From Alphaproteobacteria bacterium (GTDB taxonomy: Bacteria > Pseudomonadota > Alphaproteobacteria > Puniceispirillales > Puniceispirillaceae): a stretch of DNA of 64,000 nt. Under the pieces are notes generated by a model. The model did no database searches. It was not told where the DNA came from and was given only the letters and a program-made list of their open reading frames with translations. The translations under genes and the position numbers were made by a program. Location: positions 62,001 to 126,000 of the forward strand of contig JADHOL010000005.1 in the NCBI GenBank assembly GCA_016779005.1, written 5' to 3'. Shown here piece by piece: positions 2,186 through 16,132 of the stretch. Numbering within the stretch: position 1 is the first letter of the stretch; every line of letters begins with the position of its first letter.

Positions 2186-2272
2186 TGGTGGGGACACCCG
2201 GACTTGAACCGGGAAGACTTATCGTCGGCAGATTTTAAGTCTGCTGTGTTTACCAAATTTCACCATGCCCCC
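2186..2272 (-). tRNA. tRNA-Leu (anticodon UAA)
   Basis: Read on the minus strand, the acceptor arms GGGGGCA and TGTCCCC pair (one G-U) with discriminator A and an encoded CCA at 2188-2186. The anticodon arm is GCAGA-CTTAAAA-TCTGC, giving UAA. A class II variable arm (GAC-GATAA-GTC) marks it as leucine, and the T arm is CCCGG-TTCAAGT-CCGGG. The gene is complete and stands alone. Confidence 0.96.
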
Positions 2273-3198: not shown

Positions 3199-3900
3199 AT
3201 GGATTTTTTTGAAACTAGAGAGCGTTACAGAAAAAAAGAATATCGGATTTATATAAGTCTGGTAATTCGCGTAGCTGTACTCTTATTGGTTTTATGGATT
3301 GGATGGCAATGGGGGAATTTTGATCAGAAAAATCTATATGACACTACCAAGAATGAGTTGGATAAAACGCAGATACAACTCAGCCAGCTAAATCAAAATA
3401 TAGTAACGCTTATTCAGGAAAACAAAAAACTAGCAGCTGAAAATACGATTTCTGATTTAGAGTTAGAAGATTTTGATAAAACCTTATCCAATTCTATTAA
3501 ATTTTTGTTGGAATCAGATGTATCTCTAGAACAAATACGCCAATCCTTACTTGCCATATCATCTCCGATAAATTGCCGCAAACTAGCAGATGAAAACTTG
3601 GCGGTTGCAACCGAGTTATATACTGGCTCAGAGTCTAGCCTATCTCTTTTCCAAGGCGGATTGCGTGTTCATATTGATGGTGCTCCCTATTCCCAAGGTA
3701 ATAAGAATAATCCGTGGTTTGACCCTGATAAAGATATTGAGGTTAGATTAGCTTATTTAGGCGGCCAGAAAATCGAAACGGGTAAATTGCCTTTAAAACT
3801 CGTTATCCCAGCAGAATACTGGTTGCTCAAAGCAGAAATAACAGAATCAAACTTGCGCGGATATGTAAGAATAATGTTTGAGCAATGTAGCTTACGCTAG
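3199..3900 (+). CDS. Membrane-anchored coiled-coil protein, unknown function
   Basis: I cannot assign a family with confidence. The 233-residue product has a short basic cytoplasmic N-terminus, one transmembrane helix (about residues 21-39), a heptad-rich coiled coil (about 45-105, many Q/N/E/L) and then a C-terminal beta-rich domain of about 110 residues with one pair of cysteines (near 116 and the C-terminus). This bitopic, periplasm-facing layout resembles gammaproteobacterial proteins of the DUF6776 type, but I see no diagnostic motif. The start ATG at 3199 follows GGGTAATAT. A short run of T bases follows the stop. Confidence 0.7.
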   Translation: MDFFETRERYRKKEYRIYISLVIRVAVLLLVLWIGWQWGNFDQKNLYDTTKNELDKTQIQLSQLNQNIVTLIQENKKLAAENTISDLELEDFDKTLSNSIKFLLESDVSLEQIRQSLLAISSPINCRKLADENLAVATELYTGSESSLSLFQGGLRVHIDGAPYSQGNKNNPWFDPDKDIEVRLAYLGGQKIETGKLPLKLVIPAEYWLLKAEITESNLRGYVRIMFEQCSLR

Positions 3901-4099: not shown

Positions 4100-4837
4100 T
4101 TGAGCCATTATTTCATAACAGGCGCCAGCTCTGGAATTGGACAGGCGCTTGCACTCGCGCTGTCATCAGATGGGCATCATGTAACCGCTGTTGCAAGACG
4201 GTTGGAGCGTTTGCAAAAATTACAAACCGATAGCCCTAATATCAATAGTTTTGCAGGGGATGTTAGTAATCTGTCAGATATGCAAAATATTATCGAAGAA
4301 TGCAGTAGGCACTCTGGCCCAATTGATTGTGCTATTTTAAATGCTGGCAAATATGTGCCTCTTGGCGGCGCAGATATCAATTCAAGCGAATTTTATGATC
4401 ATATGATGGTGAATTATATGGGGGTTGTGCATGTGCTTGATTGTTTAATACCCGCATTCAAAAGCACAGGCTCTGGACATATTGCCATTATGGGCTCAAC
4501 GGCTGGCTATAGAGGGCTGCCCCGTTCTGCAGCTTATGGGCCAACAAAAGCAGCTCTTGCCAATTTGGCAGAGGCTTTGTATTTGGATTTAGAGCCTTAC
4601 GGTATTAAAGTTCAAATGATAAGTCCTGGATTTGTGGAAACTGAAGCAACAGCCGTGAATGATTTTAAGATGCCTCAAATTATTTCAGCACACACAGCAG
4701 CAACTAAGATTATCAAGGGACTAAATAGAAACCAGTTCGAAATTTGTTTTCCGGCTGGTTTTGTATGGGTCATGAAGCTTCTTAGCGTATTACCTCATGC
4801 TCTCTACACTCCTATCATCAAATGGATCACTAAATAA
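4100..4837 (+). CDS. Short-chain dehydrogenase/reductase of the lipid-modification cluster
   Basis: A classical SDR of 245 residues: Rossmann glycine motif GASSGIG near the N-terminus, NAG motif, and the catalytic YGPTK (Tyr-x3-Lys). The C-terminus has a hydrophobic stretch (FVWVMKLLSVLPHALYTPII), suggesting membrane association. The start is TTG at 4100, with TAGGAA upstream. Its stop shares one base with the next start (TAATG), so it is translationally coupled to the NTF2-like gene. The same SDR/NTF2 pair accompanies the COG2907-DUF1365-methyltransferase genes in vibrios and other bacteria, which points to a redox step on a lipid; the substrate is unknown. Confidence 0.88.
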   Translation: MSHYFITGASSGIGQALALALSSDGHHVTAVARRLERLQKLQTDSPNINSFAGDVSNLSDMQNIIEECSRHSGPIDCAILNAGKYVPLGGADINSSEFYDHMMVNYMGVVHVLDCLIPAFKSTGSGHIAIMGSTAGYRGLPRSAAYGPTKAALANLAEALYLDLEPYGIKVQMISPGFVETEATAVNDFKMPQIISAHTAATKIIKGLNRNQFEICFPAGFVWVMKLLSVLPHALYTPIIKWITK

Positions 4838-5277
4838 TGGCCTCTCAGTCTCAACACCCTATTCATAATTATGCGTTATTATTCTCGCAATTAACGCCTG
4901 ATAATTTACCAGAAATCGGCGAATTAGTCTCAGATGACATGGTGTTTTCCGATCCCTTTAATCTGACCTATGGCAAAGATAAATTTATTCGCATTTTTCA
5001 ACATATGTTCGATGTGATGGAAAACCCTAAATTTGAAATTTTAGATGTCAGTATTTCTAGCCGGGCTGGATATATCAAATGGCGTTTAACGGGACAGGTG
5101 AAAAAATGGAAGCAGATTCCAATAGATATCACTGGCATGTCAGAGGTTGTAAATGACGAATCTGGTCAAATTACAGCTCATTATGACCATTGGGATAGTG
5201 CAAGCCAATTATTGGTATTTATTCCAGCTCTAGGCTTGCCAACAGCTTGGTTGTTGAATTTATTTAGATTAAAGTAG
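4837..5277 (+). CDS. NTF2-like (SnoaL-type) family protein
   Basis: A 146-residue protein of the NTF2-like cone fold, indicated by its size, the alternating helix/strand pattern, the motif FSDPFNLTYGKD near residue 33-44 and the later HYDHWD segment. Such proteins bind small hydrophobic ligands or act as isomerases or lyases. A hydrophobic C-terminus (LLVFIPALGLPTAWLLNLF) could touch the membrane. It overlaps the upstream SDR by one base and very likely works in the same pathway. The gene pair converges with the DUF3833 gene, the last of the minus-strand lipid operon. Confidence 0.8.
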   Translation: MASQSQHPIHNYALLFSQLTPDNLPEIGELVSDDMVFSDPFNLTYGKDKFIRIFQHMFDVMENPKFEILDVSISSRAGYIKWRLTGQVKKWKQIPIDITGMSEVVNDESGQITAHYDHWDSASQLLVFIPALGLPTAWLLNLFRLK

Positions 5278-5298
5278 GTAATGCATAATCAGGTGCAT

Positions 5299-5826
5299 TT
5301 AACCACTATTTGCAGCCCGCATCACTGGCTGAGATACCATAGCCTCGTCTGTTTTCATGAAGGTTATAAAAACCTCGCCAAGCAATAGACCATATTTCTT
5401 TACCTTAGCGTTATTTAACATAATCAGCGGCGTTTGCTGGATCATCACATCTTCAAACTTAACCTTAATTTTTCGGTTGAACATTTTTAGATTAAAATGA
5501 TACTGCCAGCTTAAATGAGCATCTGTTAATTTGCCAACAGCCTGACCACAAACATCATCGCACATACCAACATAAGTGTTCTGCCCTGATTTTTGGATTT
5601 CCCAACGTCTTAGTTCCTGCTCGCCATCATCAAATACAAAATATTCATCTAATGCAAAGCCAGTAGCTGTTTTCTGGCCTGTAATGGAAACGTTAAAGCG
5701 TCTTCTTATAATACCGAATCTGTCAATAAATACGCCAGTTGCTTCGATATCACCGACGAAATAGTTTTCTGGAACAAATCTATCAGATAACGTCATATCG
5801 GTATTTTGGCTCACTAACTCATTCAT
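5299..5826 (-). CDS. DUF3833 family protein
   Basis: The body of this 175-residue protein matches DUF3833: the segment ENYFVGDIEATGVFIDRFGIIRRRF and the following DEYFVFDDGEQ strands are characteristic in form. An upstream in-frame TTG at 5874 would add 16 residues; I prefer ATG 5826 because the family homology starts just after it. Many relatives are lipoproteins; no lipobox is seen here. It follows the CFA-like methyltransferase gene after about 175 bases, so it may have its own promoter or be the last gene of that operon. It is known only by association with lipid-modification genes. Confidence 0.8.
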   Translation of the reverse strand: MNELVSQNTDMTLSDRFVPENYFVGDIEATGVFIDRFGIIRRRFNVSITGQKTATGFALDEYFVFDDGEQELRRWEIQKSGQNTYVGMCDDVCGQAVGKLTDAHLSWQYHFNLKMFNRKIKVKFEDVMIQQTPLIMLNNAKVKKYGLLLGEVFITFMKTDEAMVSQPVMRAANSG

Positions 5827-6002
5827 TATAAGACACACCCAAATTTTATTTATGTAATATATACGGTGAGCCAATTCATTTGGTTCAATAGATAGGCTAA
5901 ATTATTACAGCTCTGTTTGGGTAGTGATGATGAATGACCGTTTTTGGACGATTTTTTCGTTATTTAGGTTTTTTTGACGTAACCATTTATGATTGGCGTG
6001 AC

Positions 6003-7199
6003 TTATATTTTATGAGTAATAAGCATCTGTTTAACATCGATAGTGCCGCCTCTAAACCCACCTTCACAATAGGCTAGATATAACTCCCACATTTTGAAAA
6101 AACGTGTATCAAATGTAGTATCATTTGCTAAATTCGGCCATGCTTCGATAAAGCGATCTCGCCATTTTTCTAGCGTTTTGGCATAATCTAAACCAAACCC
6201 GTAGCTATCATTAATCTGTAATCCTGCTTTGCTTATTGGGTTTTGGAGCGCTGAAATAGAAGGCAGCATGCCGCCGGGGAAAATATAGCGCTGGATAAAG
6301 TCAGGGGTGTTTCGGTATTTTGGAAATTCATGTTCGCTGATTGTGATAATTTGCAAGGCTGCTTTGCCGCCTTCTTTTAAGGACTGACCAATTTTATCGA
6401 AATAAACAGGCCAATATTGCTCGCCCACAGCTTCAAACATCTCAATTGAGATGATTTTATCGAATTTCTGGTTTAAATCTCTGTAATCCAATAGTTTTAA
6501 TTCTGTCTTATCTGACAGGCCTTGTTTTTGCATGCGCTTGCGTGCGAATTCGTATTGTTCATTGGAAATTGTAATGCCAGTTACGTGGGCATTAAGGTTC
6601 TTGGCTGCAAATTCCATAAATCCGCCCCAGCCGCACCCTATTTCAAGTACGCTATCGCCAGCTTTTAGATCGGCAAGCTCTGCTATTTTGCGATATTTAT
6701 TTTGCTGGGCCTCGGTAAGTCCTTGTTCCTCTGATGCAAAAATAGCGGATGAATAGGTCATAGAAGGGTCGAGCCATTTTTTATAAAAATTATTACCAAG
6801 ATCATAATGATAGGCAATATTCTTACGAGAGCCAGATTTACTATTTCTATTAGCAAAGTGAATTATTTTTGATAATGCTTGTTTTAAGAGACTGTGATTT
6901 AGGTCTTTGCTTAGAAGCTCTGAGTGAAGCGAGCCTAACTCAATCAAGCTAGCAAGGTTATTACTCTCAATTTCGCCAGCCATATACGCCTCACAAAACC
7001 CCATTCTACCATTTTGAAGCATTTGTTTAACGCCAAGAGGAGAGGATAGGGTTATATCAGCTACAGGGCCGTTTTGCTTGCCTTTATAAGTGGCCCTATC
7101 TCCGTTAGGGAAGGTAACTTGAAGCTCGCCAAGTTGAAGCTGTTCAAAAATTTTTCTAAGGGTTTTTACCCTAAGGCTTGTCAAAAGCTTGCTCGTCAT
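6003..7199 (-). CDS. Cyclopropane-fatty-acyl-phospholipid synthase-like methyltransferase
   Basis: A 398-residue class I SAM methyltransferase of the CFA synthase family. Visible hallmarks are YHYDLGNNFYKKWLDPSMTYSSAIF (about 130-155), the SAM-binding VLEIGCGWGGF near residue 187-197 and RYIFPGGMLPS near 303-313. Family members transfer a methyl or methylene group from SAM to the double bond of phospholipid acyl chains. In Rhodobacter, relatives make methylated trans-unsaturated chains that are precursors of furan fatty acids, so the product need not be a cyclopropane. It overlaps DUF1365 by four bases (ATGA). Confidence 0.93.
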   Translation of the reverse strand: MTSKLLTSLRVKTLRKIFEQLQLGELQVTFPNGDRATYKGKQNGPVADITLSSPLGVKQMLQNGRMGFCEAYMAGEIESNNLASLIELGSLHSELLSKDLNHSLLKQALSKIIHFANRNSKSGSRKNIAYHYDLGNNFYKKWLDPSMTYSSAIFASEEQGLTEAQQNKYRKIAELADLKAGDSVLEIGCGWGGFMEFAAKNLNAHVTGITISNEQYEFARKRMQKQGLSDKTELKLLDYRDLNQKFDKIISIEMFEAVGEQYWPVYFDKIGQSLKEGGKAALQIITISEHEFPKYRNTPDFIQRYIFPGGMLPSISALQNPISKAGLQINDSYGFGLDYAKTLEKWRDRFIEAWPNLANDTTFDTRFFKMWELYLAYCEGGFRGGTIDVKQMLITHKI

Positions 7200-8014
7200 T
7201 TAGTGCGCTTTCGGATTTGTGATTGGCTGATGGAAATATCTGGTGGGGTAGGCCTTGGATGATAAATGCATTTCTTTAAAAATAGTTTAACAGCTTCAAA
7301 ATGTATCGATATTAGGGGTCTAAGCGGGAATTGTCTATTAGCAATTATGTGTTTTATAATGTCAATTGATGTTAGAGGGTATAAATTGCCGCGCATGGTT
7401 GCGGTTAAGGCAGGCTTAGTATCTTTTAGATAGCGAACAATTACTGAAAAGCTATCGCCTCGTCTTTTGTAGGAGAGCATATATTCCCCCTCATTTGGAA
7501 AAAAGGGGGAGACATGCATCTTCTTCAACGCAATATGTGTTTCAGTTTTTTGGTGTTCGTCAATCACAGCTACATAGCTATGCGCATCCCCAAAAGTATT
7601 ATGGACTTCATATATAACAAAGCGGTCATTTCCATCAATATCTTGGCAGATAAATACTGAAATTGGATTAAAATTTAGATTGAATATTCTTGGAAAAGTA
7701 AGAAGAAAAATGTTTTTTATTGGTGTGTTTGGTAAATATTCATGTGCAATATTCCGGATGTTGTTTGCGAGTTTATCTGGTGCAGCCCCTTGTTTTTTGC
7801 GCTTTTGTTTCTGGAGATAATCAGTGCCGTAATCTGACTGATAAAACGAAATAAGATTAAATTTATCGATTGAAAACAACCTGCTTTGTGTGTTTGCCAA
7901 GACAAGATTGTCTAAATCGATCAAAATTGAAAGCCCAGAGCGAGATAAAAAATGAGACGGAGTTCCATGCCGGGTATGGGTGATAATAGAAGATGCCAAT
8001 CTTACAGCCTGCAT
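7196..8014 (-). CDS. DUF1365 family protein
   Basis: A 272-residue DUF1365 protein, seen in the segments TFPRIFNLNFNPISVF and the later MHVSPFFPNEGEYML. The family has no settled biochemical role and occurs almost always between a COG2907 flavoprotein and a CFA-type methyltransferase, as here. The start ATG at 8014 lies 15 bases after the flavoprotein stop, and the gene ends in an ATGA overlap with the methyltransferase, so the three are translated as one unit. No signal peptide or clear membrane helix is visible. Confidence 0.9.
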   Translation of the reverse strand: MQAVRLASSIITHTRHGTPSHFLSRSGLSILIDLDNLVLANTQSRLFSIDKFNLISFYQSDYGTDYLQKQKRKKQGAAPDKLANNIRNIAHEYLPNTPIKNIFLLTFPRIFNLNFNPISVFICQDIDGNDRFVIYEVHNTFGDAHSYVAVIDEHQKTETHIALKKMHVSPFFPNEGEYMLSYKRRGDSFSVIVRYLKDTKPALTATMRGNLYPLTSIDIIKHIIANRQFPLRPLISIHFEAVKLFLKKCIYHPRPTPPDISISQSQIRKRTK

Positions 8015-8029
8015 GGATGTTTATCCTGT

Positions 8030-9361
8030 TTAAGTTCCAGCAATTTTTGCTGTTTTACGATGCCAGATTTCCAGTAATTCTGGCGCATGACACGCAGGCG
8101 TAGGACTATCCCACGGAATGGTCACATCAAAAGCTTTGGCGATTGCGACAGCAGATAAAATACCATCTTCGTGAAATCCATACCGTGTCCATGCTCCACA
8201 AAAATAGGTGTGGGCTGGCCCTTGTACTGTATTTAACTGGTTTTGTGCGTCAATTGCGTTTTGATCAAACACCGGATGAAGATATGTAAATTCCCGAAAT
8301 GGTTTTTCAATAGGGGAGTCTTTAAACGGATTTAAGGTAACAAATAAGGGCAGTTTATCTGGCAGAGATTGTAATTTATTCATCCAGTAAGTCACGCATA
8401 ATTCGCTTTGCTTAGACGCATTGGAAAGGTAATTCCAAGCAGACCAGGCCGCTTTGCGTTTGGGCATATAGGAGGATTGTGAATGCAAGATAACTTTATT
8501 CTCCTGAAAACCGAATTGGCTTAACATATCATGCTCTTCATCACTGGCATCACTCAACAAGTTAAGGCTATCATCGGCATGGGCAGCAAGAATTACCTTA
8601 TCAAAAAACTGTGGTTTTTCACCCTCAATATAAATCATAGCGCCTTGTTCTGTGCGTTGGATTTTTTCAATCACGATATTACATCTGGCGCTTGCGCCTA
8701 GATCTTGTATTATTTTAGATACGTAGTTTCTCGAACCACCGCTTACAGTTCGCCAAACAGGACGTCCTGAAAAATCCAATAATTTGTGATTATTCATGAA
8801 TTTAATAAATGAGCGCGCAGGAAATTGCATTACTGTTTGGGATGGGCAAGACCAAATAGCAGCAGCCATTGGCAGCATATGCTCATTGATGAAGGTTTTG
8901 CTCATTCGCATTCTAATCATCAACTGCTCTAATGTTTCATCTTTGGGGCCTTGCTCTACTTCTTGTGTTGCTGATTTATAAAAACGAAACAAATCTACTA
9001 GCAAACGCCAATATTTTGGTTTTATAAAGTTTAAGGGCTGTGCACATAATCCGCGCAATGAGCCTGCATATTCAAAGCGCCCATTAGACAATGATACCCC
9101 AAAGGACATATCTGTCTCTTGGGTTTTTACATCTAGCGCATCAAAAAGCCCAATAAGATTAGGATAATTGTAACTATTATAAACAATAAACCCGCTATCT
9201 ACGCTAACAGGGTCTGATGCGGCGTCTTCTCGAACATCAACTGTATGCGCATGACCACCGAAACGATTATCTTTTTCGAGCAAGGTTACCTCATGTTCTT
9301 TATGAAGTAGCCAAGCAGCACTTAATCCTGCAATCCCAGAACCCACAACGGCAATACGCAT
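8030..9361 (-). CDS. NAD(P)/FAD-dependent amine-oxidase-like oxidoreductase (COG2907)
   Basis: The N-terminus MRIAVVGSGIAGLSAAWLL is a textbook FAD-binding Rossmann motif, followed by LLEKDNRFGGHAHT. The C-terminus has the second FAD contact FCGAWTRYGFHEDGILSAVAIA. At 443 residues it has the size of COG2907 predicted NAD/FAD-binding proteins. I place the start at ATG 9361, 12 codons after the longest in-frame start, because the Rossmann strand begins there and AGAAGGG lies just upstream. It heads the minus-strand lipid operon. It presumably oxidises or desaturates the modified acyl chain; that is inference from context. Confidence 0.9.
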   Translation of the reverse strand: MRIAVVGSGIAGLSAAWLLHKEHEVTLLEKDNRFGGHAHTVDVREDAASDPVSVDSGFIVYNSYNYPNLIGLFDALDVKTQETDMSFGVSLSNGRFEYAGSLRGLCAQPLNFIKPKYWRLLVDLFRFYKSATQEVEQGPKDETLEQLMIRMRMSKTFINEHMLPMAAAIWSCPSQTVMQFPARSFIKFMNNHKLLDFSGRPVWRTVSGGSRNYVSKIIQDLGASARCNIVIEKIQRTEQGAMIYIEGEKPQFFDKVILAAHADDSLNLLSDASDEEHDMLSQFGFQENKVILHSQSSYMPKRKAAWSAWNYLSNASKQSELCVTYWMNKLQSLPDKLPLFVTLNPFKDSPIEKPFREFTYLHPVFDQNAIDAQNQLNTVQGPAHTYFCGAWTRYGFHEDGILSAVAIAKAFDVTIPWDSPTPACHAPELLEIWHRKTAKIAGT

Positions 9362-9424
9362 AATCTGCCCTTCTCTTAATAATAATTTTATTATCAATAA
9401 CTAATAATTAGATTTTTTTCTATG

Positions 9425-10174
9425 TCATTTACATAAATTTGCAACATCGCGAATGTGATAAAGTTTTGTTCTATGGCAGAAATAAATTTCTGGAGCCTGT
9501 GAAAACAAACTGGAAATCGTTTTATCCCTAATATTTAAGCCCCCAGTAAATACCCCAAAGGCAGGTAGAATCATCCGACAGGTATCAAAAATAAAACATT
9601 TTCCTGAGGCTGTACCAGCACGCAGTCTTAATTTTGCTTTTGGATGATAATGAGCGATAATCTGACCGTCAGCAGGCGCTAACATAGTGTTAGGGTCATT
9701 CTGCTCTATCTGATGCCGAAGCTCAATCTTACCGATGCTAGATGATAGGCTTTGCGTGCCATTTAAAAAATCTGGCAGTAAGGGGTCATGATTTCCAAGC
9801 ACCCATGTAAATTCTCTTCCAACCATTAAGTGTTGTAGCTGCTTTTTATAGGTATCAGCTAGCGATTGTGCTGCTGCTATCGTGTGGAAACTATCCCCTA
9901 ATAAAATACAATGTGATACAGGGTTTCTATTTAATGCACTGCCTAGAAGCTCTAATGTTTCTATTGTATCATATCCAGGTAGCAGAGTGGCACTTGATTG
10001 CGAAAACGCTTTTTCAAGATGCAAATCAGCCACAATAAGTGTTTGGCTGTCTGCATGGTAACATGAGCCATCTGCATATAACCAAAAAAGCTGATTACAA
10101 AAAGTAATCTCAGCTTTGTCTAAATCACGATTAGACGCCAGATTAAGGCCGGCTTTTGGGGGCAGAAGATCCAT
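9425..10174 (-). CDS. pdeM: Ligase-associated DNA damage response endonuclease PdeM
   Basis: A 249-residue calcineurin-like metallophosphoesterase. The metal ligands are in order: Asp50 and His52 (VADLHLEKA), Asp94 (LLGDSFH), Asn129-His130-region GNHD at 127-130, and a late IIAHYHPK histidine pair. The motif VADLHLEK is typical of PdeM, which is encoded with the Lhr-type helicase, exonuclease and ATP-dependent ligase. The gene follows the helicase by four bases on the same strand and clearly shares its transcript. It is a cytoplasmic enzyme; its physiological substrate is not firmly known. Confidence 0.92.
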   Translation of the reverse strand: MDLLPPKAGLNLASNRDLDKAEITFCNQLFWLYADGSCYHADSQTLIVADLHLEKAFSQSSATLLPGYDTIETLELLGSALNRNPVSHCILLGDSFHTIAAAQSLADTYKKQLQHLMVGREFTWVLGNHDPLLPDFLNGTQSLSSSIGKIELRHQIEQNDPNTMLAPADGQIIAHYHPKAKLRLRAGTASGKCFIFDTCRMILPAFGVFTGGLNIRDKTISSLFSQAPEIYFCHRTKLYHIRDVANLCK

Positions 10175-10178
10175 ATAT

Positions 10179-12665
10179 TTAAATTTCTTTTATCTCATTG
10201 ATAAGGTTATATTCTAATTCTTCTAACATTGTCTCAAATGCAGATGACATAACTGATTCTCGTCCCACTTCAAGTAGCAGAGGGATAGCAAGAGCTGATA
10301 TTCTAGGTAAATCAACATGCGTAATCTTATTCTCAAACCGAATTAGAAGGTCTGAGAGCCTGCGGATATCTGTCAAACCTCTGGCGGAATCCTGCCGCGT
10401 TGCTTCAAGCAAAATATGATCTGGCTGATGTTTTCTTAAAACATCATAAATAAGGTCTGAATTAATAGTTACTTGTTTTCCTGTTTTTTCTGTTCCGGGA
10501 ATTTTTTTATCAATTAATCCTGAAATCGTGGCAACCTGTCTGAATGAGCGTTTCAGCATGGTTGATTCAGCCATCCATTCCTCTAATTCATCTCCTAATA
10601 TGTCAGGGTTAAATAAGGGGGCAGGTTGATTTACTTTTTCAAGAGACCAAATAGCAATCGCATAATCTGTTGCAACAAAACCAAGTGGTTTTAGACTTGT
10701 CCTTTCCATGCGTCTGGTAAGAAGCATGCCAAGCGTTTGATGCGCATTTCGACCTTCAAATCCATAGGCGACAAGATAATGTCGCTCACCGCGTTGGAAT
10801 GTTTCAACCAGCAAGCTATCGGTATCTGGCAGCTGTGAGTATGTTTGTTGAATTTCAAGCCATTCTCGCACTGGTTCTGGAAGAGATGGATGAATATCGG
10901 TTGATTGTAGAATATGTCTTACTGTTTCAGACATATCTGCTGTTAAGGGCAACCTGCCACCTGCATAGGCAGGCACTTTCGGCTCTTTTGCAATAGTAGG
11001 CTCAACAATGACCTGCATTTTTCTAATTTCCACAAAAGCCACGATTCGGCCTGCAAAAACAAAACTATCGCCTACCCGTAATGATTGGACAAAATACTCC
11101 TCTATTTCTCCCAAGGCTGGGCCGCGTGCAAATCTGATTTTTAATGTTGTCGTCTCTACAATCGTGCCTATATTCATACGCCATCTTGTAGCGACTCTGC
11201 GACTGGTTAGTCGGTATAATCCATCTATTCCTTTAACAATGCGGCGGAATTGCTCGTAATGCTCAAGCGCATAACCGCCTGTGCTCACAAACTCAAGAAC
11301 TTGATTAAATATATCGCGTTCAAGAGAGCGGTAAGGCGGAGCTGTGCAAATTTGTTGATATAGCGCATCAGCATTAAAAGGCCCTGCAACTGCCCGACCA
11401 ACTATATATTGTGCCAATACATCCAGACTGCCAGAATATTCCTCAAGCCTGTCAAGTCTTCCTTGACTTACATTCAGGCGAGCCGCAAAGGCTTCTATTA
11501 CTTCGAATCTATTAGCAGGAACAATAATTGCTTTTGAGGGTACCCCAAGGCGGTGTCCTGCGCGTCCAATTCTTTGGATAAGGCGCGAGGTTCCTTTCGC
11601 AGCGCCTACCTGTATTACAAGGTCAATGTCAGCCCAATCGATACCCAAATCCAGTGAGGAGGTGGCCACAACAGCGTCTAAGGCACCCTCTGCCATAGCC
11701 TTTTCTACGTTTCGGCGCTGACGGGCATCAAGAGAGCCATGATGTAATCCGATATGCAGATTATCTTTATTTTCTCGCCATAATGACTGAAATAATAATT
11801 CCGCCTGTGCTCTGGTATTCACAAAAATAAGGCTCGTTTTATGAGCAGATATCATGTGATAAATATCACCAACCGCATAATTGGCAGAGTGTCCTGCAAA
11901 CGGAATATCATTCTTATTTGGATGATAAATTTCGATATTAATTTTTTTATCTATGTTTGGGTTAATAATCGCTACTAAATCTGGGGTTGGTGATAGCCAG
12001 CACGCTAACTGGCTGGGATTAGCAACCGTAGCCGATAAGCCAATAAAGGCAGCATTAGGGGCGCAAACCCGAAGCGATGCGAGGGATAGCGACAAAAGAT
12101 CCCCGCGTTTATTGCCAATAACAGTGTGAATTTCATCAATAATAACAGCAGATAATTTAGAGAAATAAAATGCTGCTTCTGGCCATGCGAGCATTAATTC
12201 AACTGATTCAGGGGTAGTAAGCAGTATATTTGGGGGTGCTGTTTTTTGCCTATTACGCTTTGTCTGACCTGTATCGCCAGTTCTTGTCTCACAAATGATT
12301 TCAAGCCCCATTTCAGCAATCGGTGTTTGCAGGTTTCTGTGAACATCAACTGCAAGTGCTTTTAAAGGGGATATATAAAGTGTGTGTAAAAATGGCTCAG
12401 TTCGATTTTCCGAGGCCTGTTTGCTAAGTTCAATCAGACTTGGCAGGAACCCGGATAGTGTTTTTCCAGAACCGGTAGGGGCAATTAGCAGACAAGAATT
12501 ACCCTCTTTTAGGTGCGAGATTAGTGAGAGCTGATGCGGGTAGACACCCCAACCTTTAGATGAAAACCAATCTTGGAATTGCGTTGGTAAGTATGAGCTA
12601 TCAGGGCTGTTTTCAGATTCTGTTTTGCTCATTTTAGTCATCACACCTAGATTTTGGCTTTTCAT
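10179..12665 (-). CDS. lhr: Ligase-associated DEXH-box DNA helicase (Lhr core)
   Basis: An 828-residue superfamily 2 helicase: Walker A APTGSGKT at 62-69, DEIH at 177-180, the SAT motif near 211, and helicase C-terminal motifs including QRIGRAGHR. The remainder is the Lhr-core winged-helix and beta-barrel region. Lhr core unwinds DNA or DNA:RNA 3' to 5'. The first start (12665) may be too early: ATG at 12632 has AGGTG 11 bases upstream and begins a plausible MSKTESEN. The gene runs into pdeM. Unlike the usual arrangement, its ligase and exonuclease partners are on the other strand beyond a GST gene. Confidence 0.95.
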   Translation of the reverse strand: MKSQNLGVMTKMSKTESENSPDSSYLPTQFQDWFSSKGWGVYPHQLSLISHLKEGNSCLLIAPTGSGKTLSGFLPSLIELSKQASENRTEPFLHTLYISPLKALAVDVHRNLQTPIAEMGLEIICETRTGDTGQTKRNRQKTAPPNILLTTPESVELMLAWPEAAFYFSKLSAVIIDEIHTVIGNKRGDLLSLSLASLRVCAPNAAFIGLSATVANPSQLACWLSPTPDLVAIINPNIDKKINIEIYHPNKNDIPFAGHSANYAVGDIYHMISAHKTSLIFVNTRAQAELLFQSLWRENKDNLHIGLHHGSLDARQRRNVEKAMAEGALDAVVATSSLDLGIDWADIDLVIQVGAAKGTSRLIQRIGRAGHRLGVPSKAIIVPANRFEVIEAFAARLNVSQGRLDRLEEYSGSLDVLAQYIVGRAVAGPFNADALYQQICTAPPYRSLERDIFNQVLEFVSTGGYALEHYEQFRRIVKGIDGLYRLTSRRVATRWRMNIGTIVETTTLKIRFARGPALGEIEEYFVQSLRVGDSFVFAGRIVAFVEIRKMQVIVEPTIAKEPKVPAYAGGRLPLTADMSETVRHILQSTDIHPSLPEPVREWLEIQQTYSQLPDTDSLLVETFQRGERHYLVAYGFEGRNAHQTLGMLLTRRMERTSLKPLGFVATDYAIAIWSLEKVNQPAPLFNPDILGDELEEWMAESTMLKRSFRQVATISGLIDKKIPGTEKTGKQVTINSDLIYDVLRKHQPDHILLEATRQDSARGLTDIRRLSDLLIRFENKITHVDLPRISALAIPLLLEVGRESVMSSAFETMLEELEYNLINEIKEI

Positions 12666-12733
12666 GCGCCTAGACTATATCAATATCCAGCCAGATAATC
12701 ATATAGCAACCAATACCCAAAAAAGGATATCTC

Positions 12734-13438
12734 ATGATAGATTTATATTATTGGCCAACCCCAAATGGACACAAGATAACCATTGCTCTTGAAGAGATGG
12801 GATTGCCCTATAGTTTACATTATGTAGATATATCGAAAGGCGACCAATTTAAACCTGAATTTTTGCGCTTTTCGCCTAATAACAAAATGCCTGCTATTAT
12901 CGATCAAGATGGTATTGGCGGAATGCAAACCAGCATATTCGAATCAGGTGCTATTTTATTGTACCTATCTGGAAAAACAGGAAAATACATCCCCTCTGAT
13001 ATGAAAAGGCAGGTTTTAGTTTGGGAATGGTTGATGTGGCAAATGGCAGGTTTTGGTCCAATGCTTGGACAGGTGCATCACTTTAATCATTATGCGCCTG
13101 TAAAGATTGATTATGCGATAGAGCGTTATGTGAATGAGGCGAGCCGGTTATATGGGGTGCTTGATACTCAATTATCAAAGGGGGATTATGTGACGGGCGA
13201 TGATTATACTATTGCGGATATGGCCATTCTGCCATGGACAAAAAGTTATGCACGCCAAGGCATTGATCTAGCAAAATTTCCAAATATTGCACGCTGGCGA
13301 GAGACATTACATAATAGAAAAGCAGTGCAAAAAGCCTATGAAATTGAAGCGGAAATTGGAGAGAAGAATAAAACAGATCTTCGAGAGTTAAGTGGCGAGG
13401 AATGGCAAAAATTATTTGGCACAACCAAGCCAAAATAA
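12734..13438 (+). CDS. Glutathione S-transferase, YfcG-like
   Basis: A 234-residue GST with an N-terminal thioredoxin-fold domain (LYYWPTPNGHKITIALEE, then SPNNKMPAI with the cis-Pro, and FESGAILLYL that binds the glutathione carboxylate) and a helical C-terminal domain containing the YTIADMAI cap motif. The TPNGHK signature is that of the YfcG/Nu class, which has disulfide reductase activity. It lies divergent from the lhr gene (68 bases between starts) and 40 bases before the exonuclease, so it may be cotranscribed with the exonuclease-ligase pair. Confidence 0.92.
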   Translation: MIDLYYWPTPNGHKITIALEEMGLPYSLHYVDISKGDQFKPEFLRFSPNNKMPAIIDQDGIGGMQTSIFESGAILLYLSGKTGKYIPSDMKRQVLVWEWLMWQMAGFGPMLGQVHHFNHYAPVKIDYAIERYVNEASRLYGVLDTQLSKGDYVTGDDYTIADMAILPWTKSYARQGIDLAKFPNIARWRETLHNRKAVQKAYEIEAEIGEKNKTDLRELSGEEWQKLFGTTKPK

Positions 13439-13478
13439 TCCAATATTATAATTATCAAATGAGGTTGCACCAAGGCTG

Positions 13479-14495
13479 ATGATAGATACAAGCTGGCTAA
13501 AAATCTCCAAACCTGGTTTATATGTTCCACCCGCATACGCCCATATAGACCCTGTAAGGGCTGTTGATACTGCAATTATAACACATGGTCATGCCGACCA
13601 TGCCCGCGCTGGTCATGGCCATGTTATTGCAACACCAGAAACCCTTGCCATAATGTCTGCGCGATATGGCGCTAACTTTGCAGCTCAGCAAACAGCGCTT
13701 CCCTATAATCAGCAATTGATGCTAGGGGATGTAAACGTGAAATTAATTCCCGCTGGTCATGTGCTTGGCTCTGCTCAGATTGTGCTTGAATATGCCAATA
13801 CAAAGATAATTGCAGCGGGAGATTATAAAAGGCGAAGTGACCCCACATGCCGTCCCTTTCAGGTCGAGCACTGTGATGTATTTATTACAGAAGCTACTTT
13901 TGGATTGCCTGTTTTTGCGCATCCAGAGCCAGAGACGCAAATTAAAAAATTATTGGAGGTGCAGCATTTGTTTCCCGAGCGCTCAATTATAATTGGGGCC
14001 TATTCTCTTGGGAAGGCACAGCGCTTAATCGCTTTATTGCGCGAGGCAGGGTACGATGAGACAATTTTCATTCATGGCGCGATGAAAAAACTATGTGAGT
14101 TATATATATCATTTGGAATTGAGCTTGGAAGTTTGCAGACAACACCAATTGGCAAAATCGATAACCAACAAATCTCACTTGCTGGCAAGTTTATATTGGC
14201 ACCACCCTCAGCAATGGGAACAAAATGGGCACAGCGATTAAGCGACCCTCTGGTGGTTTCTGCCTCAGGCTGGATGCAGGTAAGACAACGTGCAAAACAA
14301 GGCGGTGTTGAGCTCCCTCTTGTGATATCTGATCATGCTGATTGGAATGATATATTACGCACCATAAAAGAGGTAAACGCATCTGAGATTTGGGTAACAC
14401 ATGGCAGAGAGGATGCTCTTATTCATGCCTGTTCTCAAATGGGTTTATCTGCCAAGGCACTCTCCCTTATCGGATATGAGGATGAGAGCGAATGA
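13479..14495 (+). CDS. Ligase-associated DNA exonuclease (metallo-beta-lactamase fold)
   Basis: A 338-residue protein of the metallo-beta-lactamase/beta-CASP-like type. The HxHxDH zinc motif is at residues 36-41 (THGHADHARAGH), further ligands are in PAGHVLGSAQI and SDHADW, and VTHGRED closes the site near the C-terminus. This is the exonuclease encoded with the damage-response ATP-dependent ligase. The gene ends in an ATGA overlap with the ligase start, so the two are translationally coupled. It is cytoplasmic. Confidence 0.93.
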   Translation: MIDTSWLKISKPGLYVPPAYAHIDPVRAVDTAIITHGHADHARAGHGHVIATPETLAIMSARYGANFAAQQTALPYNQQLMLGDVNVKLIPAGHVLGSAQIVLEYANTKIIAAGDYKRRSDPTCRPFQVEHCDVFITEATFGLPVFAHPEPETQIKKLLEVQHLFPERSIIIGAYSLGKAQRLIALLREAGYDETIFIHGAMKKLCELYISFGIELGSLQTTPIGKIDNQQISLAGKFILAPPSAMGTKWAQRLSDPLVVSASGWMQVRQRAKQGGVELPLVISDHADWNDILRTIKEVNASEIWVTHGREDALIHACSQMGLSAKALSLIGYEDESE

Positions 14496-16132
14496 GGGTT
14501 TTTGCCAATTTACTTCAGTCATTACTATATGCCCCTCAACGTTTGGTAAAACAGGCCTATCTAGTCGAGTTTATAAGAAACACGCCTGACCCGGATAGAG
14601 GATATGCCCTATCTGCCCTTACCGGGGAGTTACCTATTCAAGGCGTGAAAGCAGGTCTTATTCGCCAGATTGCCTATGAGAGGTGTGATAGTGTTTTATT
14701 TGATTTATCCTATGATTTTGTGGGTGATTTGGCAGAAACGGTTGCACTTATCTGGCCCCAGAATGATAATCTTTACGCAGAAATAAGCGTAAGTGAAATC
14801 ATCACCAAACTTAAGACGGTATCCAGAATAGATGCTCGTATAGTATTAAAACAATGGCTTGATCAAATGCCTGAAGCCCAAAGATGGGCCTTATTAAAGC
14901 TACTGACAGGCGGGTTGAGGGTTGGGGTCTCTGCCCGTATGGTTCGGCTTGCATTAGCACAAGCCTATCAAACTGATGTCAATGACATAGAGCAGATTTG
15001 GCCCTTGATTGAGCCTCCTTACGCAGAACTTTTTAACTGGTTAGAAGGAAGTGCAGACAAGCCAGATGCAGCAGGACGCGCGGTGTTCCGTCCGATGATG
15101 CTTGCGCATCCGCTTTTGGAGCCTGAAATAGAGCGATTGGATTTTACCTCATTTCAGGCAGAGTGGAAATGGGATGGTGCTCGAATTCAATTGGTATCTG
15201 GAACCGATGGGGTGCGCCTGTTTTCAAGGTCAGGAGATGATATATCAAGCACCTTTCCTGAAATCGCAAAACCTCTTTCATGGAAGGGGGTGATTGATGG
15301 CGAATTGCTAGCGGGCACCCCAGATCAGCTTGGAAGTTTCCAGCAATTACAGCTAAGACTTAACCGCAAAAAACCATCCTCTAAATTAATGTCAGAGAAC
15401 CCCGTTTTTGTGAGAGTTTATGATATCCTTATCGACGGGGATAGCGATCTGCGAGACAATAGCCTAGAGCACCGCAGGGCGCTTCTAGAAGCTCAGATGA
15501 AATCTGGACTTAATGTTGCGTATCTTGATTTGTCTGAGATATTAGCAGAAGCCAGCTTTGCTAATTTACAAATTTGGCGCGAGCAATGCCGGGCTGGCGG
15601 GCTGATTGAAGGGGTGATGCTTAAACATAAAACAAGTAGCTATCAGGCAGGGCGCATAAAAGGGAGTTGGTATAAATGGAAGCGGGCTCCGCTAACAGCT
15701 GATTTGGTGATTTTATATGCTCAAAGAGGACATGGTAGGCGCTCCTCATTTTTTTCTGATTTCACGCTTGGTGCTTGGGCCGAAGACAGCAAGACTGACA
15801 ACAAGACTGGCACCCAGACTGGCACCAAGACTGGCACCAAGACTGGTACAGCTACTCTGCTGCCCGTTGCAAAAGCTTATTCTGGCTTTAGTGATGATGA
15901 GCTTAAAATGCTAGATAAATTTGTAAGAGAACATATCGTCCAAAAATTTGGTCCAGTACGGGAAGTTGAAAAAACATTAGTGGTAGAAATAGCGTTTGAT
16001 TCTGTTCAGCGTTCCAAACGTCATAAATCCGGCATTGCAACCAGATTTCCAAGATTTAAAGCAATTCGCTGGGATAAGCCTGCCAATGAAGCAAATTCGG
16101 TCTCTGACCTTATCGCAATGATAGATATCTAA
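14492..16132 (+). CDS. ATP-dependent DNA ligase (cisplatin damage response type)
   Basis: A 546-residue ATP-dependent ligase. After an N-terminal helical DNA-binding domain (about 1-200), the adenylation motif is EWKWDGAR with the nucleophile Lys226, followed by FSRSGDD (motif III), VIDGELL, EGVMLKH and YKWKR. The OB-fold region follows with DLVILYAQRGHGRRSSFFSDF. An insertion of five 12 bp repeats encodes about 20 residues rich in K-T-G-T near residue 433-452, in a loop where relatives have only a few residues. It joins nicks in duplex DNA with ATP, in addition to the essential NAD-dependent LigA. Confidence 0.95.
   Translation: MRVFANLLQSLLYAPQRLVKQAYLVEFIRNTPDPDRGYALSALTGELPIQGVKAGLIRQIAYERCDSVLFDLSYDFVGDLAETVALIWPQNDNLYAEISVSEIITKLKTVSRIDARIVLKQWLDQMPEAQRWALLKLLTGGLRVGVSARMVRLALAQAYQTDVNDIEQIWPLIEPPYAELFNWLEGSADKPDAAGRAVFRPMMLAHPLLEPEIERLDFTSFQAEWKWDGARIQLVSGTDGVRLFSRSGDDISSTFPEIAKPLSWKGVIDGELLAGTPDQLGSFQQLQLRLNRKKPSSKLMSENPVFVRVYDILIDGDSDLRDNSLEHRRALLEAQMKSGLNVAYLDLSEILAEASFANLQIWREQCRAGGLIEGVMLKHKTSSYQAGRIKGSWYKWKRAPLTADLVILYAQRGHGRRSSFFSDFTLGAWAEDSKTDNKTGTQTGTKTGTKTGTATLLPVAKAYSGFSDDELKMLDKFVREHIVQKFGPVREVEKTLVVEIAFDSVQRSKRHKSGIATRFPRFKAIRWDKPANEANSVSDLIAMIDI
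15790..15849 (+). repeat. Five 12-bp tandem repeats inside the DNA ligase gene
   Basis: Consecutive units of the form CAAGACTGGCAC at 15790, 15802, 15814, 15826 and 15838, with one to three differences among them. The period is a multiple of three, so copy-number change keeps the frame and adds or removes four residues (K-T-G-T) each time. Confidence 0.92.

Follow-up and report, generated by a model that had tools for sequence, protein, structure and literature searches.

Furan fatty acids (FuFAs) are radical scavengers known from fish, from algae and from certain marine bacteria, few bacterial producers being named in the text consulted (PMC3528120). Their synthesis has been described in Rhodobacter sphaeroides and Rhodopseudomonas palustris: UfaM converts cis-vaccenoyl phospholipid to 11Me-12t-18:1, UfaD desaturates this intermediate to 11Me-10t,12t-18:2, and UfaO, which contains DUF1365, closes the furan using oxygen from O2; in R. 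palustris, ufaD, ufaO and ufaM correspond to RPA2571, RPA2570 and RPA2569, respectively (PMC7380195). The core regulon of ChrR and RpoE, an extracytoplasmic function (ECF) sigma factor of type ECF11, comprises RSP1087, a short-chain dehydrogenase (SDR), RSP1088, RSP1090, RSP1091, RSP2143 and RSP2144 together with rpoE and chrR (PMC5507510). Here we analyzed a stretch of 64,000 nucleotides (the window) from an alphaproteobacterium of the Puniceispirillales, the order name of the SAR116 clade (PMC12262181). Between positions 4100 and 9361 it carries six genes in two convergent sets, and the minus-strand run ufaD-ufaO-ufaM very probably constitutes a furan fatty acid operon. The six genes and the gap upstream of ufaD are as follows:

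8030–9361, minus strand: ufaD-like gene, FAD/NAD-binding oxidoreductase of 443 amino acids (Pfam Amino_oxidase 64.4 bits, NAD_binding_8 58.6 bits)
7196–8014, minus strand: ufaO-like gene, DUF1365 protein of 272 amino acids (Pfam DUF1365, PF07103, 183.4 bits)
6003–7199, minus strand: ufaM-like gene, CMAS-family S-adenosylmethionine (SAM) methyltransferase of 398 amino acids (Pfam CMAS 305.9 bits)
5299–5826, minus strand: DUF3833 gene, 175 amino acids from the ATG at 5826, within a reading frame at 5299–5874 (Pfam DUF3833 142 bits)
4837–5277, plus strand: NTF2/SnoaL-like gene, 146 amino acids (Pfam SnoaL_2 40.9 bits)
4100–4837, plus strand: SDR gene, 245 amino acids, TTG start (Pfam adh_short 135.8 bits)
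9362–9424, minus strand: 63 bases separating pdeM from ufaD, a candidate promoter region with no canonical ECF11 motif

The list of open reading frames (ORFs) of the window confirms the six genes, and every protein matches its own Pfam family over the cut-off. Both sets had been described in a sequence-only reading of the window, which had also tied the genes to the RpoE-ChrR group of Rhodobacter, in agreement with the core regulon table of PMC5507510. It also counted DUF1365 among the proteins with no known reaction; that view has been overtaken, because the O2-dependent, furan-forming UfaO contains this domain (PMC7380195). The ufaD-like gene was assigned the ATG at 9361; the mechanical ORF extends to 9397. 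On the minus strand 15 bases separate ufaD from ufaO, ufaO and ufaM overlap by 4 bases, and DUF3833 follows about 176 bases further on. The SDR and NTF2-like genes share a single base on the plus strand, and 21 bases lie between the ends of the two sets.

Following the model of R. sphaeroides and R. palustris, UfaM would place the methyl group of SAM on cis-vaccenoyl phospholipid chains to give 11Me-12t-18:1. The next step, desaturation to 11Me-10t,12t-18:2, would fall to UfaD, and UfaO would close the furan ring with O2-derived oxygen to yield 9M5-FuFA. The product would scavenge singlet oxygen and peroxides in the membrane of a rhodopsin-bearing surface-ocean cell. DUF3833 is likely to be a lipid-binding barrel, while the SDR and NTF2-like proteins may be accessory, perhaps processing oxidized chains. 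The same ufaD-ufaO-ufaM run was found at named Bradyrhizobium loci with rpoE-chrR nearby.

Several points weigh against this assignment. The likeness to the Ufa proteins of R. sphaeroides and R. palustris is one of family and published gene order. The accessory roles are unsupported, since deletion of RSP1087, RSP1088 and RSP1089 left the FuFA of R. sphaeroides unchanged (PMC7380195). The best NCBIfam matches of UfaM are cyclopropane synthases, all of them under the cut-off (297.3 of 600, 288.2 of 400 and 261.5 of 650 bits for models of cyclopropane fatty acid synthase, Cfa). These matches, the CMAS family itself and the structurally solved relatives, which are Cfa enzymes, would suit an ordinary Cfa in a cluster for general membrane hardening, as the paper on the SAR116 strain IMCC1322 assumes for the cfa genes of that strain. 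We regard such a function as very unlikely: against the four top NCBIfam models UfaM scores 40–72% of the respective curated thresholds, and it is constantly linked to UfaD and UfaO, neither of which has a described role in cyclopropanation. Apart from UfaM, no protein of the genome passes the CMAS cut-off, so that no separate Cfa was seen. It also counts against a cyclopropane product that the methyl esters of 11-methyl-18:1 and cyclo-19:0 are equal in mass, because of which routine profiling may confuse the two. For IMCC1322, 0.66% "cyclopropane" chains, which favor a Cfa, and 1.0% polyunsaturated chains are given, with no furan reported in the part of the paper cited (PMC11813361). These lipid figures, which were the sole ones found for SAR116, neither show nor exclude furan chains.

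It is also unlikely that the product is a related but different lipid, as would be the case if synthesis halted at methylated dienes or took place at another chain position. Such a product would fit the low identity of the window UfaO to 58 relatives (27–51%) and the NTF2-like gene, which is kept in SAR116 and is not described for the R. sphaeroides operon in the cited part of PMC7380195. Across 59 sequences, however, 15 positions of UfaO are invariant and another 13 nearly so, and the three core genes remain together across loci, both of which argue against such a lipid.

We also inspected predicted structures. The DUF3833 model (predicted local distance difference test score, pLDDT, 87.5) is a ten-stranded barrel, which superimposes on nitrobindins with Z 14–15 and a root-mean-square deviation of 2.8–3.3 Å over about 135–141 residues. 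Its structural matches include nitrobindins, spirocyclases and fatty-acid-binding proteins (Z 14–16 and about 10), and DUF3833 is accordingly predicted to be a calycin-like (lipocalin/nitrobindin) barrel. It may bind acyl chains or the product; we leave this as an inference because a shared fold shows no function. A lipoprotein-type signal is absent from the DUF3833 proteins of the window and of SAR116 and present in the copies of SAR11, Elioraea and Thiodiazotropha. The UfaO model has a pLDDT of 93.9, with no PDB relative found by sequence. Since its structural matches in the PDB are weak (best Foldseek E 7.8e-3, best Z 6.6), we claim no mechanism from the fold.

The cluster is widespread in the order: UfaO was found in 99 of 121 genomes and in 40 of the 43 high-quality ones. 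We fetched 60 of the 98 available SAR116 loci, all from genomes already known to contain UfaO. UfaM and UfaO were present in all 60, UfaD and the NTF2-like gene in 58 each, the SDR in 57, DUF3833 in 30 and a photolyase in 11. The few loci missing UfaD, NTF2 or SDR lie at contig ends, and DUF3833 is optional. Gene order in relatives therefore bears out a linked lipid-tailoring set, with linkage kept in 60/60 of these loci and in 20/20 loci of the SAR11 order, which rules out scattered, unlinked homologues.

ChrR is distributed far more narrowly. A profile built from 19 sequences (A1) gave 345–394 bits in 21 of the 121 genomes, all of family f1, and only 21–37 bits, with matches covering part of the cupin domain, in 11 others. 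Among the 43 high-quality genomes, 15 have a strong ChrR, all with UfaO, and 25 have UfaO without one. The same profile scores 89–148 bits on 21 ChrR frames from other proteobacteria, a range in which a diverged ChrR would be expected to show up. In the single-contig SAR116 genomes G007 and G015 the cluster is present and the sigma factors are of the RpoD (by length), sigma-32 and FliA types only, with no ECF sigma factor in either genome; the sigma-32 of G007 was confirmed, that of G015 assigned from its length. The uncoupling of the cluster from ChrR in relatives is thus well supported. No alternative regulator beside the cluster was obvious in the ORF lists of eight ChrR-less loci. We also considered a coupling between loss of RpoE-ChrR and loss of a second RpoH. 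G007 and G015 suggest it, G001 does not, having no ChrR, yet two proteins of RpoH length and one of ECF type; we do not claim such a coupling.

The genome of the window itself (1.97 Mb, 48 contigs, 92% complete, window on contig C34) does contain the regulator. On contig C1 an ECF-type sigma gene, rpoE, has a ChrR-type cupin gene immediately behind it (L002 528–1157 and 1168–1827); Cupin_7 matches lie on C1, C12, C31 and C7 and none on C34. Three photolyase-family matches were found on C38 and C26 and a rhodopsin gene on C32. The earlier statement that neither ChrR/RpoE nor photolyase is alongside consequently holds for the surroundings of the cluster and does not extend to the genome. On C38 two photolyase-type genes are adjacent (L324 4113–7087), the second presumably also of this type; they are a possible partner of a light-damage response. 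Upstream of rpoE (L325 1900–2240) we noticed a block containing AAATCGCAAAACTTT, which is conserved in the genus and partly in other genera.

In the window organism the cluster could be a normal member of the RpoE-ChrR regulon that is merely unlinked, a reading compatible with a furan product and to which we assign just under an even chance. The rpoE-chrR pair would then regulate it from another contig. Consistent with this, the cupin metal-site pattern of ChrR is intact, the published core regulon includes these genes (PMC5507510), and one of the five sigma factors of the genome (RpoD by length, two of sigma-32 type, RpoE and one of FliA type) is a second sigma-32. The retention of UfaO in 78 of the 100 ChrR-less genomes of the order, most relatives using the cluster without ChrR, stands against it.

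The anti-sigma domain of ChrR binds zinc through His-His-Cys-Cys in the model protein (PMC6852236). All 19 SAR116 ChrR sequences (L002 1168–1827 and 18 more) have HxxxNxxS instead of HxxxCxxC and hence lack both Cys ligands; they keep the cupin metal ligands HxHxxxE...H. Of the 21 ChrR frames from named loci elsewhere in the proteobacteria, 12 likewise lack HxxxCxxC.

Promoter sequences were scanned for the ECF11 consensus TGATCC-N16-CGTA (PMC5507510), allowing spacers of 15–17 and at most two mismatches, with expectations from shuffled sequence; the sigma factor of this clade may prefer another sequence. By these settings a scan of 270 bases at the window ufaD gave no site, which speaks against RpoE control, and one two-mismatch site lies upstream of the window SDR. 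A canonical ECF11 promoter was not evident in front of rpoE, ufaD or the SDR. In relatives, sites upstream of ufaD occurred in 7/18 ChrR-bearing loci against 3.8 expected, in favor of RpoE control, and in 8/37 ChrR-less loci against 6.7. Upstream of the SDR the counts were 6/19 against 4.4 and 17/37 against 7.0, respectively, the excess in the genus of the window stemming from preceding coding sequence. Upstream of rpoE itself there were fewer sites than expected (3/19 against 6.1), a further point against that control. The promoter counts neither establish nor exclude control of the cluster by RpoE. In a small number of f1 loci, AATC-type sites combined with CGTA lie 5' of ufaD.

Clusters also occur in the SAR11 order: a scan of named genomes gave 80 loci, of which 15 bear the title Pelagibacteraceae or Pelagibacterales. 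All 15 have ufaO, ufaM and DUF3833, 14 have ufaD and 14 a clear convergent SDR, which is weak in L177. Taking the order of G121, one of these named genomes, as the SAR11 order, DUF1365 scored over the cut-off in 137 of 197 genomes; the named controls of that scan gave 1 of 14 rings. No credible ChrR was found in the order, the profile giving three weak matches of 20–24 bits. In 17 of 17 chosen genomes there are exactly two Sigma70_r2 proteins, of 610–631 and 299–314 amino acids; the long ones are RpoD by length, one short protein was confirmed as RpoH and the others were assigned by length. Twenty loci, chosen from the 137 genomes to mix strong and weak DUF1365 matches, all contain ufaD-ufaO-ufaM; ten also have DUF3833 and SDR, and five others an upstream photolyase. 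In a concatenated tree the SAR11 and SAR116 clusters are each monophyletic; under midpoint rooting they are not sisters.

We then extended 20 SAR11 loci with strong matches on long contigs, ten of the genomes being shared with the previous set. In 18 of them (L296-L312, L314) ufaD-ufaO-ufaM-DUF3833 sits behind gcvP of a gcvT-gcvH-gcvP operon, gcvP ending 3–14 bases before ufaD (6 in most), and a glycine riboswitch (RF00504, 46–71 bits) lies 4.4 kb upstream in each. L313 and L315 have neither gcvP nor riboswitch. Over all 30 distinct genomes of both sets, gcvP precedes ufaD in 18. In L313, L315 and L177 ufaD follows a gene for an EamA-like membrane protein, labeled from sequence reading, which marks a second genomic site of the cluster. 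The glycine riboswitch of SAR11 gcvT is already known (PMC2704228, PMC5069720), and in the cited part of PMC5069720 no genes beyond gcvT are reported as linked to it in the assemblies. The spacing suggests that gcvP and the ufa genes may be co-transcribed in SAR11.

The pathway itself is already known; how widely it occurs in SAR116 and SAR11, and that it is separated there from RpoE-ChrR, appear to be new. The suggestion of the sequence-only reading that the cluster is under different control finds support in relatives, in the sigma factor sets without ECF of G007 and G015 and the two sigma factors of 17 SAR11-order genomes; for the window genome, in which no canonical ECF11 promoter was evident, neither reading is preferred. 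Cells with only two sigma factors cannot use RpoE-ChrR, and their lipid would therefore be constitutive or have its level set in some other way, for instance through the glycine riboswitch. We tentatively propose, with the balance leaning somewhat against it, that furan fatty acids may be a standing membrane lipid of SAR116 and SAR11, largely without RpoE-ChrR, that in SAR11 the genes, appended to the riboswitch-bearing gcvT-gcvH-gcvP operon, would couple lipid methylation to glycine and one-carbon supply, and that these clades could be a major furan source in the marine food web. If true, the pathway would name abundant candidate producers, and the lipid would no longer be bound to the singlet-oxygen switch that led to its discovery. 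A literature search, with most subscription journals outside it, found nothing that connects furan fatty acids with either SAR11 or SAR116; the sole co-mention concerns dinoflagellate volatiles (PMC9230497).

The surroundings of the cluster were mapped as well. The genes 5' of ufaD on its own strand encode PdeM and a helicase of the DEXH type (TIGR04121, 1043.9 bits); past these, and oppositely oriented, come a putative exonuclease-type gene and the gene of an ATP ligase, a cisplatin-response DNA ligase (TIGR04120, 674.6 bits). Together the four form a ligase-associated DNA damage response set (9425–16132), which adjoins the ufa cluster in the genus of the window and in several relatives. In several other families a photolyase sits between PdeM and ufaD; a locus photolyase upstream of ufaD was recorded in f2, f3 and part of f4. 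On the other side of the cluster, 3199–3900 encodes a protein of 233 amino acids with no Pfam match over the cut-off; it is located 5' of the SDR in many relatives, directly so in several f4 loci. Rfam matched the window at a single place, a tRNA gene at 2189–2272 (minus strand).

Compared with the RpoE(ECF11)-ChrR regulon, the window has counterparts of RSP1087, RSP1090, RSP1091 and RSP2144, and rpoE-chrR and photolyases are present elsewhere in its genome; in contrast to that regulon, no canonical promoter is established and the cluster is kept without ChrR in most genomes of the order. With bacterial cyclopropane fatty acid synthase the window UfaM shares the CMAS family, but it falls under the curated Cfa cut-offs and is embedded with UfaD and UfaO. 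The closest likeness is to the Ufa pathway of R. sphaeroides and R. palustris, which has the same three protein families, with the core order of R. palustris shared. The window SDR has the same length as RSP1087 (245 amino acids, PMC7380195), and its DUF3833 is similar in length to RSP1088. The window differs in its convergent SDR and NTF2-like pair and in having no adjoining ChrR/RpoE, and whereas ufaM of R. sphaeroides (RSP2144) stands outside the RSP1087-1091 operon, ufaM of the window lies inside the run.

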